Below are positions 23,140-60,230 of a stretch of 64,000 bases of DNA, one piece after another. A program made the translations under genes and the position numbers. The stretch is from contig MDYQ01000002.1 in assembly GCA_003024175.1 (NCBI GenBank), forward strand, positions 124,001-188,000, read 5' to 3'. The stretch's first letter is position 1, and every line of letters begins with the position of its first letter. This DNA is from Planoprotostelium fungivorum. Its lineage: Eukaryota; Evosea; Variosea; Cavosteliida; Cavosteliaceae. The notes beneath the pieces are model-generated. The model was given only the letters and a program-made list of their open reading frames with translations, was not told the origin of the DNA and did not search any database.

Positions 23140-24235
23140 TCTTACGCCCGCCGATCGTCGTTCCACGGAAGACTGCGGGAGTAAGTAAGCGACGTCAAGA
23201 TTCTTTGGTGAGCAGAAGAAGACAAGATATTCTGTAAGTTGGCATCGTATTGGTGACTGTCAGTGTTGAACCACGGGGGAGGGATGGGTTGGATAAGTGG
23301 TTCTAATTTGGTTGTCAATTCGTTCCACATCTAGTATCGAGGATGATTTTGTGCGATAGGAGTGGGAACCAAGATGAATCTTGTGGGTTCTTAGACGTGT
23401 CCAAGAGGATGGCGATGAAGCGTTTGTATTCATCGTGTAGTTTGGGGCTTGTACATAGAATGGTAAAGTATGTCGGGTAACGTCTTCTGGTGGTCTCTGT
23501 CGGGGATCGTGTGATGGTTTCAACGTGATTGATGTAACCCCATTCTTTTACTTTTTGGATCACATAGTTGCATCGTGGGAATGTGTGTTTGCCGATCACG
23601 TGTGGAGAGGATGGATTCACAATATTTAGTTTGATGATCGACAACGAGCGGTTGAGTGTTTCTGTGTGGGGTGTCATGATGTGTCGCACGCGAAGTTCAT
23701 CGTAGATGTTAACATTGGTGGTGGCAATGGCGAGTTTCATGTGCTGTATGGATTTGAGTCCACGGTATGTCCACCACATAATTTTTCCTGAACTCTTGTG
23801 TATTCGGCTGGAGATTTGTAATTGGCTGATCGTCCATTTATCAAGTCTCTCAGTGAAAGATTTCTCCATTGGTAAAGCTGTCATTCGATATTCGATCAGG
23901 GGATGGCTACGGTATTGATCAGTTTGATGTGTAGGTTTGTACCGAAGTATTTCTTCCTTAGGATCATTCCAACAATTCTTTTATATGATGTTTCTATTTG
24001 TTTGTACATTGGCGTTCAATCCAGAGAGCGTGTGATTAGCCAACCAAGGTATCGATATGGTGTACAGTTTCCGATGGTGGTGATGGGTTTGTTTTGTGGT
24101 TGTATCATGATGGGTTCTTCTTTTTTATCATGTTTCCAGGCATACACTGATTTCTCTTCGTTGATCATCAAGTGGTTAGTTGGACAAACAAAAAACTGGA
24201 GAAATGAAACATACATCTACAACGATATATCACCA
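23140..24235 (-). mobile_element. Degraded LINE (non-LTR) reverse-transcriptase fragment
   Basis: The minus strand encodes the C-terminal part of a non-LTR reverse transcriptase: CPTNHLMINEEKSVYAW, then CTPYRYLGWLITRSLD, then YKRIVGMILRKKYFG, INTVAIP and IEYRMTALPMEKS, followed by a downstream region ending near 23142. The MINEEKS, RYLG and thumb-like spacing are those of LINE reverse transcriptases. The 5' part (fingers, YADD palm) is missing, and the remaining frame is interrupted at least twice, so this is a 5'-truncated dead copy. It fills most of the 1.2 kb between the DUF4395 gene and the TACC-like gene. It contains none of the short palindrome-bearing introns, except one ATCTACAACG at 24215-24224 at its edge. 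The family below LINE level is unclear. Confidence 0.7.
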
Positions 24236-24267
24236 CATGGCGCGAACACGAGTATTTGAACATCATC

Positions 24268-27200
24268 ATGGACGACGAAGTCACACAATTATTGAAGGGA
24301 TTGAATATACCCGATTCATCAGATGATTCTGTTGAACAAGATGAAGGTACGTGAGAAATTGGAAGAATCAATCGCTGATGAGTCTCAACAGTTCAGAAAC
24401 TACTCGCTAATATCGAAGCAAGCAATGATTTTGCAGATATCGACGCTCAGGTGAATCTCCTCTTCATATCTTCATATCATTTCTGATGCGAACGAACAGA
24501 TCGCAGACACGCTCTCTGGCGGCTCCGCTTTTGATCTAGATTCAATTTTGAATTCAACCAGTGCCCCTTCCACTGATTTCACATCACATCCAAAGGTCTT
24601 TCAACCTGCAGGTAACATCAGAGCCAATCGATTTATGGCACCTTCAGAATCGGAGGAAGAAGAAGAAGCAGGTGATCTGTTTGAGGTGTATCATCTGTAC
24701 TCACGCGATCCCCAAGATGAACCTGTAGAAGAGGACCAATACAATGAGGAGGAAGAAGACATCGACAGAGACGAAGATTACGAAAGACAAATGAGAGAAC
24801 AAGATGCCCTCTTGGCCGAGTTGGACGGAGTGAGCTATTACAGTTTCCTCTCGCATGTCTGTCTTCCATATCTCATGTGATCTCACAGGACGAAGAACAA
24901 TACGATGAAGATCATGTTCAAGACGAAGAAGGTGGGGAAGACATCGCTCACGAAGAGAACTCTCAAGAGGATGGAGAGGGATCACCGAGAGAAGAAGATA
25001 TCGATGAAGATGAAGAGACAGCCATCATGAACCGTCTGGAAGAGGAAGAGAAGAGAGAAGAAGAAGAGAAGAAGGCTGCTGAAGAAAAAAAGCGTCAAAG
25101 AGAAGAGGAGAAGAAGAGAGTGGAGGAAGAGAGAAGGACCAGAGAAGATGAGGAAAAGAAGAAGAGAGTAGAAGAGGAGAAGAAGAAGAGAGAGGAAGAA
25201 GAGAAGAAGAAGAGAGAAGAAGAGGAGAAGAAGAAGAGAGAAGAAGAAGAGAAGAAGCAGAAACAAGAGATGGTGAGTGTCATCATCGCTTAGATGAGGC
25301 GAATTGATGTATACAGACCCCTCCGGGAGAGAAGAAGAGCTACAAGAGTGAGCTAGAGAGAATTCGTGCGGAGAGAGAAGCACTGGAGAAGGCCAGAGCG
25401 GAGAGAAAGGCTGAGAGAGAGCAAGAGAGGAGACAGTCTGGAGGAATGCCCAGACACAGCATAGAACAGTCTGAATCTGAGCGTGTAGCTGCAGATCAGG
25501 CCAGGGCTGAGAGAGAAGCGAAGGAGAAGGAGGCGCAGGAAATCAAGCAGAAGGAAGAAAGAGAAGAGAAGGAAAAGAAGGAGAGAGAGAAGAAGGAGAG
25601 AGAAGAGAAGGAAAGGAGAGAGGAGGAATTGAGGGTGAAGGAGAGGGAGGACAGAGAGAGGGAAGAGAAGAAGGTTGCACAAGAAGCCAAGGAGAAAGAG
25701 AGAAAGGAGAGGGAGAGGAAGGAGGCAGAAGAGAAGGAAGAGAAAGAGAGAAAGGACAGAGAGAAGAAGGAGGCAGAAGAGAAGGAAGAGAAAGAGAGAA
25801 AGAACAGGGAGAAGAAGGAGACAGAGGAGAGAGAGAAGGAAAGAGAGAAGAAGGAGAAGGAGGAGGAGGAGAGAGTGGAGAGGGAGAGAGTGGAGAAGGA
25901 GAGAGTGGAGAGGGAGGAGAGAGAAAAGATTGCAAAGACAGAGAACGAGAAGAAGGAGAGAGTGGAGAAGGAGAGAATGGAGAGGGAGGAGAGAGAAAAG
26001 ATTGCAAAGACAGAGAACGAGAAGAAGGAGAAGGAAGAGAAGGAGAGGGCTGAGAGAGAGGAGAAGGAGAGAGTTGAGAGAGAGGAGAAGGAGAGAGTTG
26101 AGAGAGAGGAGAAACTGAGAGCCGAGAGAGAAAAGGAGGAGAAGGAAAGAGAAGAGAGGGAGAGAGAAGAGAGAGAGAAGGAAGAGAAGGAGAGAGAAGA
26201 AACAGAGAGGGCTGTGATGGAGAAGATCAAGGCACAGAAGGAGGCACAGATCCAAGCGACAAGAGAGAAGGAAGAGAAGGACAGACAGGCCAAAGAACAA
26301 GCCGAGAGAGAGGCAAAACAGAGAGGAGAAGAGGAAGAAAGAAGACAAGCGAGAGAGAAGGAAGAGAAGGAGAAGAGAGAGAAGGAAGAGAAGGAGAAGA
26401 GAGAGAAGGAAGAGACAGAGAAGAAGGAGAGAGAAGAGAAGAAGAAGAGAGAAGAGGAGTTAGAGAAGATAAGAGTAGAGAGGGAAGCGTTAGAGAAGTC
26501 CAAGGCAGACCGAGAGAGACAGAGGTGAACGTTCGAAGAAAATCCACGGAAAATTCACGGAAATGTAGGGCGGCAGAGGAGGCCGAACATCAGCGACAAT
26601 CAGAGGCACAGGTGAATCTCATGATATCTCGACGAGACATCACACCGACACTTGTAGGTCAATCTACAACGAGCCACGTCCACCTCATCGGTACGTACGA
26701 TACTACATAAGATCACCGCGATATCATCTAACTACAACGTTGTAGAACGGAAACCACTCAGACGACAACACACCCTTATACAGTGACCGTGACGTAGAGA
26801 AGGTCCGCTACATGATCATACGTAACGTGAGTTCTCCACCACTTTCCTCTCTCATCCCCACAGGGCATGGAGGACGCCAGCTTCATCCACGCAGAGATAC
26901 AACAGTGTGAAGAGAGGCTGAGAGAAGACGAGAGACAGAGAGAGAAGATGTCAGCCTTCATGAGAGAGTGCGAGAACACCGTCTTGTCTTACCTGGGTGA
27001 GCTAAAAATGGACACTGTCCGCTCAATGTCCGACAGCTCAATTGAGTGCGACGCCGCAGTCACCGTCGACTCGACCGATGGACGCCAGCAGGTGGATGGA
27101 TAAATTGACCGAGGTGGGTCATCTACAACGATGTAGATGGAGAGTAAGAGGGGACAGGTGGAGGGAGAGGTAACGAAGATGGCCCTCTCTGCACAAAAGT

Positions 27201-27655
27201 ACGAACAAGTGTCGGAGAAGATCACACAGCAGACACAGCAGTGGCAAGCGACCCGACAGAAGTCCATCGAGGTGCATCATCATCTGCATCGTCTACATCT
27301 TCTCTTCTATGTCCTCTACCCTCTCTACGTTCTCCTTCTCATCTCCATATAGAATCAGAACCTCCTCATGTCTCAGATCAAACATCACGAAGATGAAGGG
27401 GAGAAGTTGAGACAACACACGGCCATCCTCCAAGAGCATGCGAGAGAGAGGATCCAGAAATGCACCTCCGAGATCTCCACCGAGAGAGGAGCCCAGCAGA
27501 AGATCATACAAGATCTCATCTCTCAATTAAGAAGGGCCGAGATGGAGAACAACTTGGTCGAAGAGAACATCAAGGCGAAGCACCAGGAGAACCACCAGCT
27601 GGTTACGGTCTGCGATGAAGTCATCGCCACGTTGGAGTTGAAGGCTCAACAATAA
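24268..27655 (+). CDS. TACC-like coiled-coil protein with long ER/K helix
   Basis: The start MDDEVTQLLKGLNIPDSSDD leads an acidic, disordered N-terminus (EEEEED, EEDIDEDEE). From about 25030 to 26530 the protein is almost only Glu, Lys and Arg (REEEEKKKREEEEKK pattern), the composition of a single alpha helix or long coiled coil. The C-terminal 200 residues are a less biased coiled coil: NLLMSQIKHHEDEGEKLRQH, TAILQEHARERIQKC, IIQDLISQLRRAEMENNLVE, VTVCDEVIATLE. The periodicity and the ending CDEVIATLE closely resemble the TACC domain, which binds XMAP215/ch-TOG at centrosomes and microtubule ends. Inference: a microtubule-organising-centre or tip protein with a helical spacer of unusual length. 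Introns near 26570-26760 and 27110 carry the shared palindrome. The stop codon lies inside an AATAAA. Confidence 0.65.
25929..26031 (+). repeat. 72-bp tandem duplication inside the charged helix
   Basis: The same 31-base stretch, beginning ATTGCAAAGACAGAGAACGA, starts at 25929 and again at 26001, so a 24-codon unit (about three helical turns times two) has been duplicated in frame. It shows how the Glu/Lys/Arg helix may grow. Confidence 0.75.
27121..27138. repeat. Intron palindrome ATCTACAACGATGTAGAT
   Basis: One central mismatch to the perfect word; lies in a TACC-like gene intron. A related copy is at 26732-26748. Confidence 0.8.
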
Positions 27656-27656
27656 A
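27651..27656 (+). terminator. Poly(A) signal overlapping stop codon
   Basis: AATAAA spans the TAA stop (27653-27655) of the TACC-like gene. If used, the 3' UTR would be only about 10-30 nt, in keeping with the 164-bp gap to the next start. Confidence 0.5.
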
Positions 27657-27818
27657 GAGGATGTACAGAGAGTCCACGTGTGATGGTCTTTCGATCATGT
27701 AGAAGATTGGATGATGATGGTCGGTTTGGATTCGGAATTTCATCTAAAATGTCAAGCTGATCTACACTGGCACCGGGGACTGTCACTCTCCTCTTTACAA
27801 GCCAACAACCGCCACAGC

Positions 27819-28091
27819 ATGGGCGATCACAGCAACGATGAAGAGCTGCCGCAAGGCTACAACTGGGAAGACAACATCGCGGACGCCATAGATGCCCTCC
27901 GTGAGCAATATAGAAGATTGGCCGTCATCAAGAACGCCACAGCAAATCGAGTTGAACCACAGTGGAATCAATACTGGGAGGAGAAAGTGAGAGAGATCGA
28001 GCTATGGACGGATGGACTTCATCTAGAAGGAGAACGGTTGTTATTGCAGCATCGAACAACGTCATCGGCTCACGGTGACGTCCAATTCTAG
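27819..28091 (+). CDS. Small unknown protein, tandem copy 1
   Basis: An intronless gene of about 90 residues beginning MGDHSNDEELPQGYNWEDN. Its core aligns over its whole length with the next gene: LPxGYNWxDNIADAIDAL, then YRxL, IKxAT, QWNQYWExKVREIExWTD, and HLExExLL. I do not recognise the family. The core is rich in Trp/Tyr and acidic residues and looks like a small helical domain. An in-frame ATG at 27711 would add a segment absent from copy 2, so I prefer 27819. The lack of introns is unusual in this window. Confidence 0.65.
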   Translation: MGDHSNDEELPQGYNWEDNIADAIDALREQYRRLAVIKNATANRVEPQWNQYWEEKVREIELWTDGLHLEGERLLLQHRTTSSAHGDVQF

Positions 28092-46900: not shown

Positions 46901-49900
46901 TGGCCCGCCATACAGGGTGAGCTGCATCTACAACGAGCTACGTCTCAATCGAGCAGACGAATTGTTGGTGGCTCAGGGAGAAGTCACTTCGGTGTGTTTC
47001 ACGAACGCAACGTTGAGAGAAGAGGCACCGAATTTGAACATGAAATTTCTTCACGATCGAGTGCAGCAGGCCGCGTACGAGATGACCCCCGAGGAAGATA
47101 GAGCGAAAATTCACTTGGAGATCGGTAGAAAACTCGTGGAAATCACGCCACCTTCGGAATTGGACGACTGTCTCTTCGATATCCTCGGACACTTCAAGGT
47201 GCGTTACCTTTCACATCGACACGCACCACATCTACCTCTTCACCTATAGACATCACGTTCGATCTACACGATGAATCTACAATCGATCTGACAGATCCAG
47301 TTGGGATCTGCACTTCTCGTGGAGCCGGAGGAGCGTCTGAAGATGGCACACTTGTGGACACAAGGTACCGAGCGCGCCAAAATGAGCAATGCAGTGAGAG
47401 TGGGTGCAGAGTATGCCGCTTACGCCGTTGGAATGCTACCCCCCAACCACTGGGACACCCTCTACGATCTATCCCTCCGCATCTTCAAGGTGATGACGTC
47501 ATATGACGTAATCGCTGACCGTGAAAAGTTGAGAACGGAGTGTGAGTACCTGTGTGGGAACACAGAATTCGCGGCGTCTCTGTACCCCATCATGCTGTCA
47601 AAGTGCAAGAGCCTGAAGGATAAGACGTCCGTATATTGGATCAAGATCTTACAATTGGAGGCACAACAAAAGTATGCAGAATCCATCGTGGCTTGTGTGG
47701 AGTGTGTGGACATGCACGGAGTCCAACTGTTGAGGCCGGACGCACCAGACGATGTAGTCATGAAGGAGTTGGCTTATCAACTGGATCAATTGAAAATCAA
47801 TATGAATGGGAGAAGTGTGAGTCGAAGAGAAAAAAAAGTGTGTGACCGGGATTCGAACAGGTGGCCGATCTGTACAATGCTCCAGACATGGAAGATGAAG
47901 GGCAACAGTCTGTCTTAGCCATCATGTCGACAGTATGGACGTCGACATTCTGCGTCAGTAGGAAGTATTACATGGCAACCATATCCACCATCGTCCTCAA
48001 TTACACGCTCAAATACGGAATCAGCAAGGTACATCGTTCATCTACAACGTTGTAGATTGACGCGAATTACAGTTTTCGTCGAGAGTCTTCTGCAATTGGT
48101 CTATGTCAGCGGCAGATATGGACATCGATTACAAATTCGCACACGACATGGGAGTCTTAGGCTGCTCTCTCCTGGAGACACATCCCAACGAGGCCATACG
48201 CTATCACTGCTACTTCAGTTTCTCCATCGGCATCTGCAACAAGGTGAGAAAAGAACGGAGGGGACGGGAATCGAACCCGCGACAGGTCATGCCCCTGAGC
48301 CACTCGTTCACGTTGATCGATAGAGCATTCGAATCATCACAAGAGCACGGAGACATACCTTACACTTGTTACTCGGCTCACCACATGATCACCCTTCGCT
48401 ACTACAAGTGATCCATCTACAACGAGACGATTCTCACATCACACAGGAGTGTCAAATTGACCGAACTGCACAAGATGCTGCGTTCGAATTGGACATATTT
48501 GAACAAACACAATCCGTTCATCTACAACTATGGTACGGGAGCCACTCTGGCGATGAAATGGCATCTCAAGTCTGATGTCATGGGAGAAGAAGAATTCATG
48601 AACAGACCCATCAGTGGAGCCATCAATTACAGTGCGTACTATGCCAGCTTGCTACAGGTGATCTACAACGAACCATCTTCATCTTCGATCGTCACGATGA
48701 TGATCGTGACATGTCGATGATCATGTGTCGATGATGATGATCATGATGATGATCATGATGATGATCATGATGATGATCATGATGATGATCATGATGATGA
48801 TCATGATGATGATCATGATGATGATCATGATGATGATCATGATGATGATCATGATGATGATCATGATGATGACTCTGAGAACAGATCGAGATGTGGAGAG
48901 ATGGAGAAGATCCGATGGAGCAGATGAGATTGATCGATCTCAGCATCCAATACACCCTCGAGGGCTGCACTGGATTCTACGCCGAAGTCGAAACTCAATT
49001 TTGCATCGGAATCGTCATCATGAGGCTCTACCAGAACAAGGACGGTGAGTCGATGAGATTTCCGCGACATTTCTCTGACTTTTCAGTGATACCCGCCGAC
49101 AAAGTGGAAGTTTACGAGAATCTTCTCCAGCACAGTGTTCGATTCATGAAGAAGGAGAGTGAAAATTGTCCATCAAACAACGAGCACAAGTATCTATTAT
49201 TGCAAGCTCAGAAGGCTAAGCTCGAGGGCAGACACATGGAAGCCGTCGTCCTCTACAACCAGGCCAGAGAATCCGCCAGGAGCCACCAATTCACCCAGGT
49301 ACACCCCCTATGACGTCACCTTCCATATCGATGACGTCATCTGACGTCACTCAGTACGAAGCTCTCTGCAACGAACTCGTCAGCAAGTTGTGGCACTCTC
49401 TCAATCAACCCAACTACGCCAAGACACACTTGGAAGATGCTCTCTACTTGTATCACGAGTGGGGATCCATCGTGAAGGAAGAACAACTCTTGTCGAGATT
49501 CTCCGTGTATCTCAGCGAAGCGGAGAGGAACATTCTGGACACGAGGATATCCCTGGGCCTTCTAAAGAACCCCATGCACGTCCTGTCGAAGGCGAGCGCG
49601 TCCTCTCTGAGTCCGATCGTGAAGAACAGGATGGATGTCATGGATGTAGATTCTGCCTCCGTGTCTTCAACTGAAATGGATAGTGCATCTGTCGATGTTC
49701 AGGTGATGATCATGATCACCATCGTCGTGTGATCGTGTGATGGTGATGACTGATGACGACGTGCAGATCATGGCAAAGGTATCACAAGCTACATCGATGG
49801 ACATGTCATTAGAGCAATATCTAGACTCCATGATGAAGTTGATCATCGAATCTGTTGGAGCACACAAGGGAATCTTTTTATTGGCCGAGGTGATCTATTT

Positions 49901-53154: not shown

Positions 53155-55162
53155 ATGCAGGTATAAGAATATAAAGTTATCTCTTCTAATACAATCAATT
53201 CAGAAACAAGTGAGAGATAACGCACAGGCTTTACAAGAGTACTTGAATGGCTTATACGCTTGGCAATCTGAAGCAGATGAGAAGCACAAGAAGTTATTAG
53301 CTGCCTCCACTATCGCCAAGAAGGTGAATCTCACGTTCAAATGAAAATCATCATGATGGTTGATAATCGAAAAGGACACTACTCCCGTTCGCAAGGGAGG
53401 CAAGTTTTCCTTCTCTTTGGGTTCGAATTCATCAGAGAGTAACTCTAACACACCATCTGTTCCCGATCTGGAGGAGGTATGTGTGATGTAATCACTTCAT
53501 CCTTTCACTCATCACACGTTCAGGTGCCCAGTCTGAAAGCCAAGGCCGAAGTCATCAATTCGAAATCATCATCGAATCGATCCAATCCAATCACCTCCGA
53601 TGCATCTAAACCGAAACCACTTCCCTCTCAATTTGTGGGCTCCAGCGACCAATTGAAGAACAATCGCGAGGAATCCATCGCGGAAAAAGACAGAGGAAAC
53701 GAATACTTGAAGAAGAATGAGATGGAGAAGGCCATGCAATGCTACACGAAGAGTATCGAACTTGATCCTCTCAACGCTCTCTCCTTTGCCAATCGTGCTC
53801 TGGTGCACATCAAAGAGAGCAGGTGATGATCACGAACATCCGATCATCACGATGTTGATGTTTGACAGATGGGAATTAGCAGAAGAAGACTGTAACGATG
53901 CCATCATCATCGATCCCAAGTACAGTAAAGCTTTCGCCAGGAGAGGCACGGCCAGAATGAATTTGAAGAGATATCCAGAGGCCATCGATGGTGACCTCAT
54001 CATCACCTCATCATCACCTCATCCTCTACAGATTTCCAGGAAGTGCTCGTGTTAGAACCAGGGAACAAAGAGGCTATCTCGCAGTTGGCCAAAATCGATC
54101 AAATTCTCCACCCCAAAAAGAGTCAAACTACAACGAAGAAGGTACAAGAGGTTGAAACGATCAAGGCTCCATCTACAACGAAGAAGATTCAAGAGATCGA
54201 AACGGTGAAACCTGCACCCGCACCTGCTTCTGTAGATCCTCCCAGGAAAAAGGTGACGTTTATTCTTCATCTACAACGCACCCATTTATTCCCCAGATTA
54301 TGATCGAAGAGATCGATTCTACTGTCAGAGAACAACCTGCACCATCGAAACCGAGAGAAGAACCAAAGACATTGATTGTAGAACAAGTGAAGGAGAGAGA
54401 AGTGAAGGAGAGAGAAGAGAAGGCAACACCTCCCGTGGAGAAAGAAGAGAAGAAGGTAGAGAAGAAGGAAGAGAAGAAAGAAGAGAAGAAGGTAGAGAAG
54501 AAGGAAGAGAAGAAAGAAGAGAAGAAGGAAGAGAAGAAGGAAGAGAAGAAAGAAGAGAAGAAGGTGGAGGAGAAGCCGATGAAGAGCGTCAACGTGCAAG
54601 TGAACGTACCGACACAAGTACCGAGGACATCTTATGAATTCGAAGCGGTGTGGAACAGTCTAAAGAGCGACACTTCTCTACTGTATCGCTACGTCAAGGT
54701 GACATCATCATCATCATCTGTTCATCGTCCTCACGATCATCATCCTCGTCCATCATCACGATCATCACGACATCCCTCTGACAAGAAGAAACAGATGATT
54801 CCACCCGTTGAATTCAAGAGCATCTTCAAAGGATCCATGAATAGCGACATCTTCTGCTCCATCCTCTCTGTCATGGAAGAACATTTCCTACCCAAGTGAA
54901 GTCATTCAACATCTTCTTTCTCTCACAACATTTACAGCCAAGAGATGAAAGAAGTGAGAAGCATATTGGATCAATTGACTGCCGTACCAAGATTCGACAT
55001 GAACGTCATGTTCATGAGTCAAGCACAGAAATCGAGTGAGAGAAGAATAAGAGGATGCAGCTGACGTAGATAGTTGTCACGAGGTTGATCGCTGCGTTGT
55101 GGGCGAACAACATGATGACCGAAGGAGATTACGATGCAATGAAGAAGAAGTATAAAATTTGA
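53155..55162 (+). CDS. RPAP3: RPAP3 (R2TP/HSP90 co-chaperone)
   Basis: The first exon is just MQ (ATG 53155), spliced to KQVRDNAQALQEYLNGLYAW, which matches the conserved RPAP3 N-terminal helix. A disordered stretch precedes one TPR module: ESIAEKDRGNEYLKKNEMEK, AMQCYTKSIELDPLNALSF, ANRALVHIKESRWELAEEDC, AFARRGTARMNLKRYPEA. A Lys/Glu repeat follows (KKEEKKEEKK; 54420-54570) and then the RPAP3 C-terminal domain: YEFEAVWNSLKSDTSLLYRY, PPVEFKSIFKGSMNSDIFCS, LDQLTAVPRFDMNVMFMS. Stop at 55160-55162. RPAP3 bridges HSP90 to RUVBL1/2 and PIH1D1 for assembly of RNA polymerase II and snoRNPs. The Lys/Glu insert is unusually long; the human protein has two TPR blocks, and here I see one. Confidence 0.9.
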
Positions 55163-55363: not shown

Positions 55364-57854
55364 TCATTCGTATTCATTTCTCTCACAATCGGACACAGAG
55401 CTAGTTTCTCCATCGACTGACGTCTTCAATCTCATGATCATCTGTCTCCGTTTCAGTCTCATCACTCACGATGTCACACTTACCCTCTCTAAATCGTTCG
55501 CTCTCTTCTTCTGTAGTTCTTCTGGAAAAGGTATGCTTGCCCTGATGATCTGTTGATAGACCGCGATCGTCTTATCTTCGATCAATTCCTCTACGATCTG
55601 CAGCGTCATCGGATGCAACCGAGTCACGGCTTCGTTCAGGCAAGTCGGTTTGTCTGCAGAGAAGGAAGTGTCGTTGGCGATCTGTTGGAGCATTCGAGAG
55701 AAGACTTGAATGGATCGTTTGTGACCGGGGAAATATTCCTCTAATGTGGTGTGAGTGAAACGATGGATGTCGAGATTCACCATCGATGAATCCACTGGAT
55801 GCGGGATCAGCCAAGGGCGGCACGATGAATTTCAAGAATAGGATGCTGGTCGTGACGCCCAAGGCGTTCACGTTGGGTAATCTCGATGCTAAGATCTTCC
55901 TCATGATGCTGAACGTCTCGCGTACGGCACTATTGTTGACATTAGAAACGGATGTGATGTGAGATACGTACAGAGGACAACTGTTGATGGTGGATCTGAG
56001 TCGTTGCAGAAATTCATCAGCTTGGGCGGAGAGCCATTCACAATTGTCAATGATATCCTGCGATCCAGAGTCTCCCAGAATCGATATCTGTGATGGATCA
56101 GATGTTTCATCATGCTTCTCTTCACCTCGATCGTCTTCCTTCTGCTGCGAATGGCATCCAGAGTGGGCTTGGAGATATCACTGAGATAAGTATGGCACCC
56201 GTGTGAGCGAAGTACGGCCGAGACTAATCTTGAAGGTATTCCATCCATACGAAACAACGTATTCGCTCCCGCTGCAATGAATCAATATCACGATATCTAT
56301 AAGTTGATCGATGTCTCACCTTGTTCATCGATTTCTTTGTGAATGGCAAACTCGATGAGAGAAGAGATACTGTTATTACATTGAAAGAAACGGAAGAGTG
56401 TGTTGATGAATTCGGGAGACTCTTTGAGATGAGGATAATTGGCAAACAGTTGCTCTAAAGCTTTCTTACCACTCAGCAGCTCTTGCGTTGTGGTCTGTCA
56501 TCATGTCAAACCGAGCCTTGGAACGATGGATCACCTGCACCGTGGAGAATAGCTCCAACGCGGCGTTCGATCGAGACGGATTCTCCATGGAATTTCGTAC
56601 TGGAGTGAGAACGACAGTCAGAGAGCTTTGAGTCTGTCTGTCGATGTGTCAATCGCCTCGTTGTAGTTTGACGTCTCACTCCATCCACTGGGCCCACAAC
56701 TCCTTGGTTGCTACGATACCAGTGTAGGCCGTCTTCACCATGAACTCTTGCTTCATCTCTCGACGGAGCGTGCGGAGAAACCGAATGAATTTCGTCTTAC
56801 GTCTGACCCTGAATATTCTGGGTTGATGGTCCAGGTAACACTTTACGCTGATGGTCTTCTTCTTCTCTTCCATGATGTCGCTGTCACTCTGACACCTCAC
56901 GTCAGCCACCTTCCTCCTCCGATAGTTCTCACCAGTGTGGGTGTGGCTCTGTCGCGTTGTAGATCACTCACGCCTGAGAACTGTGGAATGTCAGATGAAA
57001 TTCGAACGAAATTTCTCACGAATCTCCAGGTCTCTTTGAAGGACATACCCATCTCCAACAGCTCTTGTGTCTTCAGGCCGCCCAGTCGATTTCCTGGAAT
57101 ATTCTTCTCCATAAATTTCTTGGAAAAGTCTCCCAGGTCGAGAGTGATGAGCCAAGAGCCAACTTCTCCAGGTGTCCACTTGTTCCAGAATCTGTTGATG
57201 ACGTCACTCTACGTCATCGTCCGTCGGCCTCACCGGCTGGTGTCCTTTAGAATCGTGATATCGTTCTGTATGGCTACAAAGTGTGTGACGTATATACTGT
57301 CTCTATCGTAGACAGGAAGGATCTTGAATCGATTCCAAAATGCGACACCGTCCTATCATCGTGTCATCACATCACATCGTGGCACGATGATGAACGTCCT
57401 TCACCTTGCGATAGTTGAGAATCTCTACGTCAGAAGGCTCTCCAGATAACACGGCCCTCTTGATGCCAGCCACCATCTCTCGGCTCGTTCCTGGTCCCTG
57501 CAAGAACCTGCAGTTCCTTCCGATGATCTCTTCTCTCGGATACAGAGTCATGCTCTCGAACTCTTCGTTCACCCAGATCTATCACTCTTCAGTACGGTGG
57601 TTCGATTCAGAGTTGCACTTACGATTGGATTGTCAGGTAATTCGTTGTCGGTGACTGTGCATGACTGACCACCCTCGGCGAGGAAGGGATACTGCTCGTA
57701 AGCTCGACTTTGGATGTCTAATAGGACTGACTCTGTAGTTGATGTCAGCGCTCGTGAAAAGTGGAGGGGTATCACCAAAGTCTTTACTGTAGACTGGTCG
57801 GTCTCTGCTATCTGTGACCTGTCGAATTGACTCCACTGACACCTTCTGACCCAT
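55364..57854 (-). CDS. LOV-SAM-ubiquitin-like-RasGAP fusion (putative blue-light-regulated Ras inactivator)
   Basis: ATG 57854 gives MGQKVSVES, a textbook N-myristoylation signal (Gly2, Ser6). After one intron comes a full LOV domain: TVTDNELPDNPIIWVNEEFE, REEIIGRNCRFLQGPGTS (flavin-adduct Cys codon 57510-57512), EILNYRKDGVAFWNRF, HFVAIQNDIT. A phase-matched intron joins it to a SAM domain (FWNKWTPGEVGSWLITL, KNIPGNRLGGLKTQELLEMG). Then a beta-grasp-like segment (KKTISVKCYLDHQPRIFRV) and a RasGAP domain: SLIEFAIHKEID, NTLFRMDGIPSRLV with the arginine finger (56249-56251), HGCHTYLSDI, STINSCPLYV, and TSILFLKFIVPPLADP (the FLRF motif reads FLKF). Stop at 55364-55366. I followed every junction from LOV to RasGAP in frame. 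Known roles: LOV senses blue light; RasGAP stimulates Ras GTP hydrolysis. Inference: light control of Ras at the membrane. Confidence 0.88.
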
Positions 57855-58522: not shown

Positions 58523-60230
58523 TCAGTGCATGGCCGAAGCGAGAGCTCTCTCTACAGATATGGACTTGCGCTCCAACAGCTCCGTGTCCATCTCAATCGA
58601 ATCTGACTTTCTCGCCACCAAGTCTCTATCCTCCGGGATGATCGTGTTCGCATGCTCATCCATCGGCACCTGCATCATCTCGTCACCATCACTCGACGAG
58701 AAACGATTCTCACTTGATCTAATTCAACGTAACAACTGATGTCTGAATAATGCACTTCGTATTTTCCAGTGTCATGATTCGGTCTGACCATGGGGGTGAA
58801 GTATGAATTCCATCGGATGTCTGATGGAAGGTAAGACCACCTGCCCTGCACGTTCATCGAGACTGCCTCGTCGACTCCATCGAGCACGATGATGATCTCG
58901 AAGAGGTTGTTGGGGTCTTTCAGTGTTTGTTTGGAGATACCCCACAGGGGTGATTGCTGGTGTCACCGTCAGTACACTCTTCACGTTCCCGATGATGTGG
59001 CGATGCTGATGTGATGGACAATGATGTGATGATGGACGATGATGTGATGAAGCGATGGAACTCACTGGATTGATGGTGTGGAACAATACCCAAGGAAGGG
59101 GAAGTTGCGGCGTAGAATAATTGAGTTGACGCGGCCGACCAAACTGCTGAAACAATTCAAAGTCCAACTCGTGCACCCTGTCATCATCATCATCTCTTCG
59201 TCTCCCGCTCTCTCACCTCAACACGAAACGCGTGTCCACCGGTACCTCCTGCTCGTGCTCTTCCAACACTTGAGGTAAAGTCCTGCCATCCATCGTCTCT
59301 CTCCTCAACAGCAACAACTTCATGGAACTGGAGATCAAGAGAGGTTTTCTCACGTTCACGCAGCGAACCACTAGAGTGGGAAACTGACCTACGTCAAAGT
59401 ATCCTTTTGTCAGTCGATCCGACGGATCATCGATGAAGTCGGATGTCAACTGTCGCATGTGAGTTGGTGATTCGAGCGATGATGGACGATGAGATATCAT
59501 GGTGACTGATGTGGTGTGATGAGAGAAGGTGATGCGAGATGATGAAGAACGGAGTCACCTGGTTGACGACAGCTACGGTCGAGAAGAGGATGTTCCTGGA
59601 TATACGAGTGGGTCTCTGTAGTTTGTTGACGATGAAGGCTGTCTACGTCAGTGTGATCATGCAAAGAAATGAGATTACCCGTGAGGACAGCGATGAACAA
59701 GATGCTAAAGTAACTCTCGACGATAACGATGGTCTGGATGTATATAGAGCTCGGTGCCAGAGGGCTGCCATAACCGACCGTGGATAAAATTTGGACAGAG
59801 AAGCAGATGCAGAGATAGTATTTACCACCTGTGGTGTAAGTATCATTGACTCCAATGATTCCCTCCGTATCTACAGAAAATCAATGGCGGAAGAGATTCT
59901 TCTCCAGCACCTGCGAATAATAGAAGAGCGAAAACAATGTGAATTATGATGTAGACGATGGTAGTTGCTAGCAGGAGCTGCCACCACGTCCATTCGAGCA
60001 TAAGATGGTACAAATCGCCTTTACCGATTCAGATTCTGGGATGGTGATGTATACATACCGATTTGGCCTTGGACCGGAACATTCTGTTGGATGATGTTAA
60101 ATTTTCTGTTGGGCTTCCTTGATACGAGTCGAATAGGGGTCGTGTTCTTGATACAGAAGCTTTCGTTCATCACCTGATGTGATGTGTATGATTCCTTCCA
60201 CACGGAAGTTGTGTATGGAAATAAATCCAT
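58523..60230 (-). CDS. Inward-rectifier (Kir-type) potassium channel
   Basis: The N-terminal region is MDLFPYTTSVWKESYTSHQ, then RLVSRKPNRKFNIIQQNV, similar to the RFV.KxGxxN slide-helix entry of Kir channels. Helix 1 is WWQLLLATTIVYIIVHIVFA. The pore loop is CICFSVQILSTVGYGSLAP, with the TVGYG filter. Helix 2 is VIVESYFSILFIAVLTG. The cytosolic immunoglobulin-like domain follows: RISRNILFSTVAVVN, TLVVRCVNVRKPLLISSS, PWVLFHTINP, SPLWGISKQTLKDPNNLFEI, GRWSYLPSDIRWNSYFTPMV, YEVHYSDF. Stop at 58523-58525 after an acidic tail. It should be a tetrameric plasma-membrane K+ channel. The usual acidic helix-2 rectification residue is not obvious. Eight or more short introns. Confidence 0.88.

Follow-up and report, generated by a model that had tools for sequence, protein, structure and literature searches.

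LOV domains occur together with many outputs, and in the LOV histidine kinases and the YtvA family the output is a histidine kinase or a STAS domain. Ras has been genetically linked to phototaxis in Dictyostelium, where the receptor is still unclear according to the available parts of two sources (PMC12503944, PMC12008035). The accessible portion of a paper on photoreceptor engineering names LOV-type natural receptors and RGS, and does not name RasGAP (PMC4469895). A natural LOV-RasGAP was not found in the open-licence literature searched, in agreement with a sequence-only reading of this DNA, which knew of none described. The terms 'LOV domain' and 'RasGAP' co-occurred there in one paper only, mentioned apart in the part of its text that was accessible. 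The same literature yielded nothing relevant on LOV in Amoebozoa or Protostelium, and no paper that treated RasGAP, the arginine finger and FLRF together.

In this study, we analysed a window of 64,000 nt (positions 124001-188000 of contig C90, from a genome of 471 contigs and 36,859,091 bases). It contains a gene that we rate as a putative LOV photoreceptor with a new output, RasGAP, where new means not found in the open-licence literature searched. For the taxonomic placement of the genome, its ribosomal protein uL3 was compared: among the best 60 of 110 matched sequences, yeast-type entries came first at 490 bits and Dictyostelium (5an9) followed at 435 bits, a result that does not discriminate an amoebozoan host.

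Gene model and paralog

The gene was modelled manually at 55364..57854 on the minus strand, with 13 exons and a product of 657 residues. Its ATG lies at position 57854 and its TGA ends at 55364, the same ends as in the span given by the sequence-only reading, and an in-frame stop is located upstream of the ATG, separated from it by four codons. All 12 introns are GT-AG, measure 38-52 nt and keep the phase throughout. Exon 1 (57776..57854, minus strand like all the following) carries the start codon, MGQKVS and the N-terminal segment to aa 26. Exon 2 (57623..57732) carries the conserved pre-LOV stretch FESVLLDIQSRAYEQYPFL, presumably a helix, and the start of LOV. Intron 1 between them (43 nt, 57733..57775) was placed with the help of the paralog described below. 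A first model, made without the paralog, had intron 1 at 57731-57692, which would remove the conserved pre-LOV helix; it was rejected because VLLDIQSRAYEQYP inside it is conserved protein in the paralog. With intron 1 at 57775-57733, the conserved stretch that immediately precedes the LOV core is back in the protein, which reads ...KDFESVLLDIQSRAYEQYPFL.... In the RasGAP region, an intron at 56534-56495 was preferred to read-through to a stop because the frames on either side join in phase. Exon 13 (55364..55441) encodes the C-terminus and the stop codon, and the paralog gives this last splice no support.

The paralog is located on contig C388 (G000:C388:132781-130057, minus strand; 6282-3558 of L014), and has 12 exons and 659 residues. 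After an MGQKIS start it has the LOV and SAM domains, then the middle segment of the first gene, and last a more diverged RasGAP; its Pfam matches were PAS_9 at 2.3e-18, SAM_2 at 9.3e-6 and RasGAP at 4.8e-12 (46.6 bits). Identity between the two proteins was 75/107 in LOV, 18/25 in the stretch before it (aa 26-50), 29/68 in SAM, 30/98 in the linker and middle segment, and 65/256 aligned positions in RasGAP; the stretch before LOV is thus the best-conserved part apart from LOV itself. The faster divergence of the GAP than of the LOV part suggests that the paralogs share a light input, but may differ in GTPase or in strength. We considered whether the second locus is an assembly duplicate, and rejected this: 30% of the LOV positions and 75% of the GAP positions are not the same in the two copies, while true-looking duplicate contigs score identically. 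Contig pairs with matches of identical score (C333/C439, C153/C376, C24/C268, C13/C94 and C73/C272 of G000) were also seen, which suggests that these are duplicated or haplotype contigs.

The sequence-only reading had proposed a single LOV-SAM-RasGAP gene, and this was borne out by in-phase splicing and by the paralog, which repeats the domain order and the junction intron. The LOV/SAM junction intron (57192..57233, 42 nt) is in phase 2, and the paralog has an intron of the same phase in the same alignment column. By rank, the phases of 10 of the 11 paralog introns agree with those of this gene, with the exception in the LOV core; in some of these ten pairs the two introns fall in different columns, where the alignment is poor. 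An extra intron is present near the end of this gene. Both models were built manually with mutual guidance, which accounts for part of the agreement between introns but not for the protein conservation flanking the junction. Two neighbouring genes, one LOV-only and one SAM-RasGAP, could be misread as one where, as here, all splicing is inferred from sequence. Against this, the non-coding part at the LOV/SAM junction is only 42 nt, and a second locus has the same order and the same phase-2 junction intron. Because the domain order recurs in two diverged loci, we regard a false join of neighbouring genes as very unlikely, and the two-gene reading has hardly any probability left to it.

Hairpins were scored in the 23 introns of both genes, and z-scores against mononucleotide shuffles ranged from -3.5 to 1.3. 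Only one of the 23, a paralog intron of 126 nt, fell below -2 against these shuffles. Some paralog introns contain ATC/ATG-rich repeats.

The neighbourhood of the gene was also inspected. Upstream of it, the minus strand carries exons at 58675-59880 that belong to an inward-rectifier potassium channel (IRK_C, 6e-16); the pore exon matched Ion_trans_2 just under the cut-off. Downstream, an RPAP3-like gene converges on it from the plus strand at 53711-55064 (RPAP3_C, 2.6e-11; TPR below cut-off). Further away, a purine-rich repeat region at 25446-26528 is readable as a 360-residue frame rich in E, K and R, with a strong skew in A and G over 24000-28000, and a tandem repeat of TCATGATGATGA (12-nt unit, 15 copies) occupies 48692-48872. 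Scans of the 64,000-nt window detected no tRNAs and no Rfam families.

The LOV domain, the SAM domain and the middle segment

The Pfam scan was redone on the final 657-residue protein, and the LOV, SAM and RasGAP domains of the sequence-only reading scored above the curated cut-offs. PAS_9 matched aa 59-154 (5.6e-17), SAM_2 matched aa 166-211 (4.9e-6; 27.1 bits against a cut-off of 20.5), and RasGAP (PF00616) reached 8.4e-16 and 58.9 bits against a cut-off of 28.3, with its best stretch at aa 467-569.

The LOV core is encoded by exon 3 (57405..57578), and exon 4 (57234..57352) contributes the LOV end (FWN, FVAIQND) and a short linker. The photoactive cysteine, C86, lies within GRNCRFLQG (codon 57510-57512), and the paralog has GHNCRFLQG, a motif of the same GxNCRFLQ type. 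Residues N118 (LNYRK), N128 (FWN) and Q150 (IQND), which we take to be the flavin-contact Asn, Asn and Gln of LOV, are kept at equivalent positions of the alignment in both paralogs. In the comparison with solved structures, the best match of the LOV part among the matches listed (best 60 of 149) was a LOV-type histidine kinase, at 1.9e-32 and 115 bits. This search was computed on the first gene model, and the match starts after the altered part. Phototropin and aureochrome LOVs scored lower in the same best 60 of 149, at about 84-91 bits, which is a hint of a bacterial source of this LOV. The YtvA family model gave 125.7 bits; its cut-off of 250 is set for the whole protein, and the shortfall is expected for a single domain. 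The intact LOV signature described in the sequence-only reading is thus present, and the domain has the signature residues expected of one that binds flavin and forms a cysteine adduct.

Light sensing by the LOV domain is very likely. Some LOV proteins respond to redox, and the domain here might signal by its flavin redox state, or be structural, and not be light-driven. This would have to be squared with a photoactive cysteine and flavin contacts that are kept in both paralogs while the remainder diverged, and we consider it improbable.

We searched the genome for other LOV genes. The LOV protein matched the genome 5 times, always within the two loci, and the PAS_9 profile 15 times with E values up to 0.01. 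A scan of 30 loci for the LOV motif found it only in this gene; such a scan misses intron-split motifs, including that of the paralog, whose LOV motif is interrupted by an intron. A DNA pattern of the motif matched twice in the genome, in this gene and on contig C130, compared with four times for a reversed control. The match on C130 (G000:C130:45581-45600) reads NCRCFQ, and is probably due to chance. By protein, PAS_9 and motif scans, the last of which intron-split motifs escape, no LOV gene was found in the genome beyond the two loci.

Other DNA collections were searched as well. In plasmid records, 345 matched LOV, all below 60% identity, with 49-53% for the ten listed. Peptide patterns were also used, which lie outside the photo-cysteine motif and carry little weight: in viral contigs 23 stretches fitted and none encodes a relative, and in prokaryote genomes one of 62 stretches does (37% identity, in an archaeal MAG).

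The SAM domain is encoded by exon 5 (56933..57191). Its SAM_2 score is close to that of the paralog (26.2 bits), and SAM_1 gave 20.6 bits, under its cut-off of 23, compared with 25.3 bits in the paralog. The domain proposed in the sequence-only reading is accordingly present. Between the end of LOV, near aa 154, and the start of SAM at aa 166 lies a linker of about eleven residues, and the spacing is equal in the paralog. Phototropin LOV domains signal through a J-alpha helix, and a linker of this length leaves little space for a helix of that type.

The middle segment, which the sequence-only reading had called ubiquitin-like, is encoded by exon 6 (56680..56888) and by exon 7 (56535..56637), which carries the rest of the segment and a linker. 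An AlphaFold2 model of exon 6 alone predicted a strand-strand-helix arrangement with a mean pLDDT of 84.1. The segment matched no Pfam family, and none of the 133 fold matches of the exon 6 model reached E<=0.001. Among the best 50 of these 133, an unrelated viral nucleoprotein came on top, and weak matches included the MEKK2/3 PB1 domain, PI3K-gamma and ATG8.2. With an E limit of 10, a two-sequence profile of the segment found 5 matches, none of them a recognisable ubiquitin-like chain; the best, a MurC ligase (0.0027), was taken as chance. A ubiquitin-like (PB1/RA/RBD) identity of the segment is thus weakly supported. If it had a Ras-binding fold, it could provide a second contact with Ras. 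A search of the genome with the SAM and middle part matched only the gene's own locus and the paralog.

The RasGAP domain

The RasGAP domain starts in exon 8 (56320..56494), where it matches neurofibromin, and continues through exon 9 (56126..56271) with the arginine finger NTLFR, exon 10 (55972..56087, Pfam match), exon 11 (55781..55929) with FLKF, and exon 12 (55484..55740, Pfam match), which also holds a C-terminal part. Neurofibromin was the best solved-structure match of the GAP part, at 6e-15, and IQGAP1 reached 0.14. The finger-bearing half of the domain lies outside the best Pfam stretch, and aligns with neurofibromin within this overall match. The finger arginine R417 (codon 56249-56251) aligns with NF1 R1276, and its equivalent in the paralog is R430. 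The RasGAP domain with an NTLFR finger of the sequence-only reading is recovered by both profile and alignment, and the gene start, gene end, photoactive cysteine and finger coordinates given in that reading were all exact.

Both copies were placed in an alignment with neurofibromin and SynGAP, and the contact residues were taken from the available portion of PMC7437355. The second arginine of the FLR motif (NF1 R1391) is lysine here, K530 (codon 55830-55832), so that FLRF reads FLKF as had been noticed in the sequence-only reading; the paralog has arginine (ALRY). The equivalent of NF1 K1283 is Arg in both copies. The other charged contacts are Gly here and Ser in the paralog for R1325, Gln and Arg for K1419, Arg and Val for K1423, and Ala and Glu for K1436. 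Of the six charged NF1 contacts mapped, this copy has conservative replacements at three (R, K, R), has lost the other three (G, Q, A) and thus matches none exactly. The equivalents of Q1426 and N1430 are unchanged in both copies.

Mutations in NF1 help to weigh these changes. In the accessible part of PMC7437355, R1391A caused a 400-fold loss of activity, K1423 to Glu or Gln lowered activity 200- to 400-fold, K1436 to Ala weakened binding about 20-fold, and changing K1423 and K1436 to Glu abolished the NF1-KRAS interaction. Lysine at the second arginine is a milder change than the alanine of R1391A. The same part of that source terms the role of the second arginine secondary and structural (PMC7437355), and the lysine here thus weakens the claim of activity, not that of homology. 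By the same alignment, SynGAP, an annotated RasGAP, has Thr at the 1419 position and Ser at the 1436 position, indicating that not all NF1 contact residues are indispensable. Taken together, GAP catalysis is plausible for this copy and uncertain for the paralog, where Glu at the 1436 position is judged a point against Ras binding.

The substrate of the domain was considered in the same light. The neurofibromin substrate contacts are poorly kept, and differently in each paralog, and the best solved-structure match of the paralog is SynGAP (1.3e-5). These observations would suit a light-regulated GAP for a non-Ras member of the Ras family, such as Rap, a variant that overlaps with the reading we prefer. 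Neurofibromin is the best match for this copy, however, and sequence tools cannot read specificity. We hold this variant to be rather unlikely, and a real contender all the same.

A light-regulated scaffold was also weighed, in which the GAP-like domain would bind a partner, whether a Ras-family GTPase or not, without accelerating hydrolysis, and light would control clustering or binding. IQGAPs have a GAP-like domain that binds without speeding hydrolysis. The lysine at the second arginine in this copy would fit a scaffold, as would the loss of the K1423 and K1436 equivalents in the paralog, the loss of R1325 and K1436 in both, and a GAP divergence far faster than that of LOV. Yet both copies keep the arginine finger, Q1426 and N1430, and the IQGAP1 match is far weaker than that of neurofibromin (0.14 vs 6e-15). 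A scaffold thus appears unlikely.

The genome contains 33 exon-level RasGAP matches, a count that takes in probable contig duplicates. Exon-level matches to the Ras superfamily number at least 180 (150 of 315 candidates scored). When six other RasGAP loci were scanned, the FLR motif could be read in two, both of the Arg type, and a Lys was seen in none. A genome search with the RasGAP part reached, outside its own exons, no more than the paralog at E 0.066 and, at E 0.16-1.2, two stretches on contig C58 and one on C173. No close relative was found by this single-sequence search, in which the paralog itself reached only E 0.066.

Proposed mechanism and comparison with known systems

We propose that photoreceptor and regulator are joined in one chain, in which blue light changes GTP hydrolysis by a Ras-family GTPase. 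N-myristoylation follows a Met-Gly start with a small residue at position 6. By eye, both MGQKVS and the MGQKIS of the paralog, which share MGQK, fit this pattern, and the signal named in the sequence-only reading is retained as a candidate site at an exactly placed ATG (57854). Myristoylation of Gly2, if it follows this pattern, would anchor the protein at a Ras-bearing membrane. Blue light would then produce a flavin-Cys86 adduct, and its signal may leave LOV through the conserved pre-LOV stretch and the short LOV-SAM linker. This exit is proposed because the space for a J-alpha helix is small and the pre-LOV stretch is the best conserved outside LOV. The signal might alter SAM-mediated assembly or free the GAP surface, and GTP hydrolysis by the Ras-family GTPase would change with light, in either direction.

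This explanation is supported by the domain scores in both paralogs, by the LOV identity of 75/107 against 65/256 in RasGAP with the same start, order and junction intron, and by the likeness of the LOV part to photoactive LOVs (histidine kinase 1.9e-32, YtvA 125.7 bits). The arginine finger and the Q1426/N1430 equivalents kept in both copies, and the many Ras-superfamily matches in the genome, also speak for it. It is weakened by the lysine at the second catalytic arginine, by the lack of identity at all six NF1 charged contacts, and by the reliance of myristoylation on a sequence motif. Val and Glu at the K1423 and K1436 positions of the paralog weaken it further, since Glu there abolishes the NF1-KRAS interaction in the accessible part of PMC7437355. 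On balance, we consider a blue-light-controlled change of GTP hydrolysis fairly probable. The direct input of blue light to Ras that the sequence-only reading put forward is an inference, and several of the residues with which neurofibromin contacts Ras are not kept. The fuller picture, a natural duplicated switch from light to Ras-family GTPases, with a membrane-anchored LOV, a RasGAP output, a constant sensor and a GAP evolving toward other GTPases, stands at about an even chance.

If active, such a protein would carry a blue-light signal to Ras within one molecule, and would offer a concrete photoreceptor candidate beside the Dictyostelium phototaxis field. Another use might be as a ready-made optogenetic brake for signalling by the Ras family.

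Compared with known systems, the gene resembles the bacterial LOV histidine kinases and the YtvA family in its LOV core (1.9e-32; 125.7 bits; 49-53% identity to the ten listed plasmid-borne LOVs), but it has a SAM-RasGAP output. In fungal LOV-RGS proteins of the BcLOV4 type, too, LOV is fused to a domain under whose action a G protein hydrolyses GTP faster; RGS, however, is a different fold with heterotrimeric G-alpha as its target. The GAP-related domain of neurofibromin is the best structure match of this RasGAP, and its R1276 corresponds to the finger; neurofibromin differs in having neither LOV nor SAM, and its six charged contacts are R, G, K, Q, R and A here. The RasD phototaxis pathway of Dictyostelium ties Ras signalling to light as the protein described here may do, but the available part of its description does not name a LOV photoreceptor, and states that the photoreceptor needs clarifying (PMC12503944).
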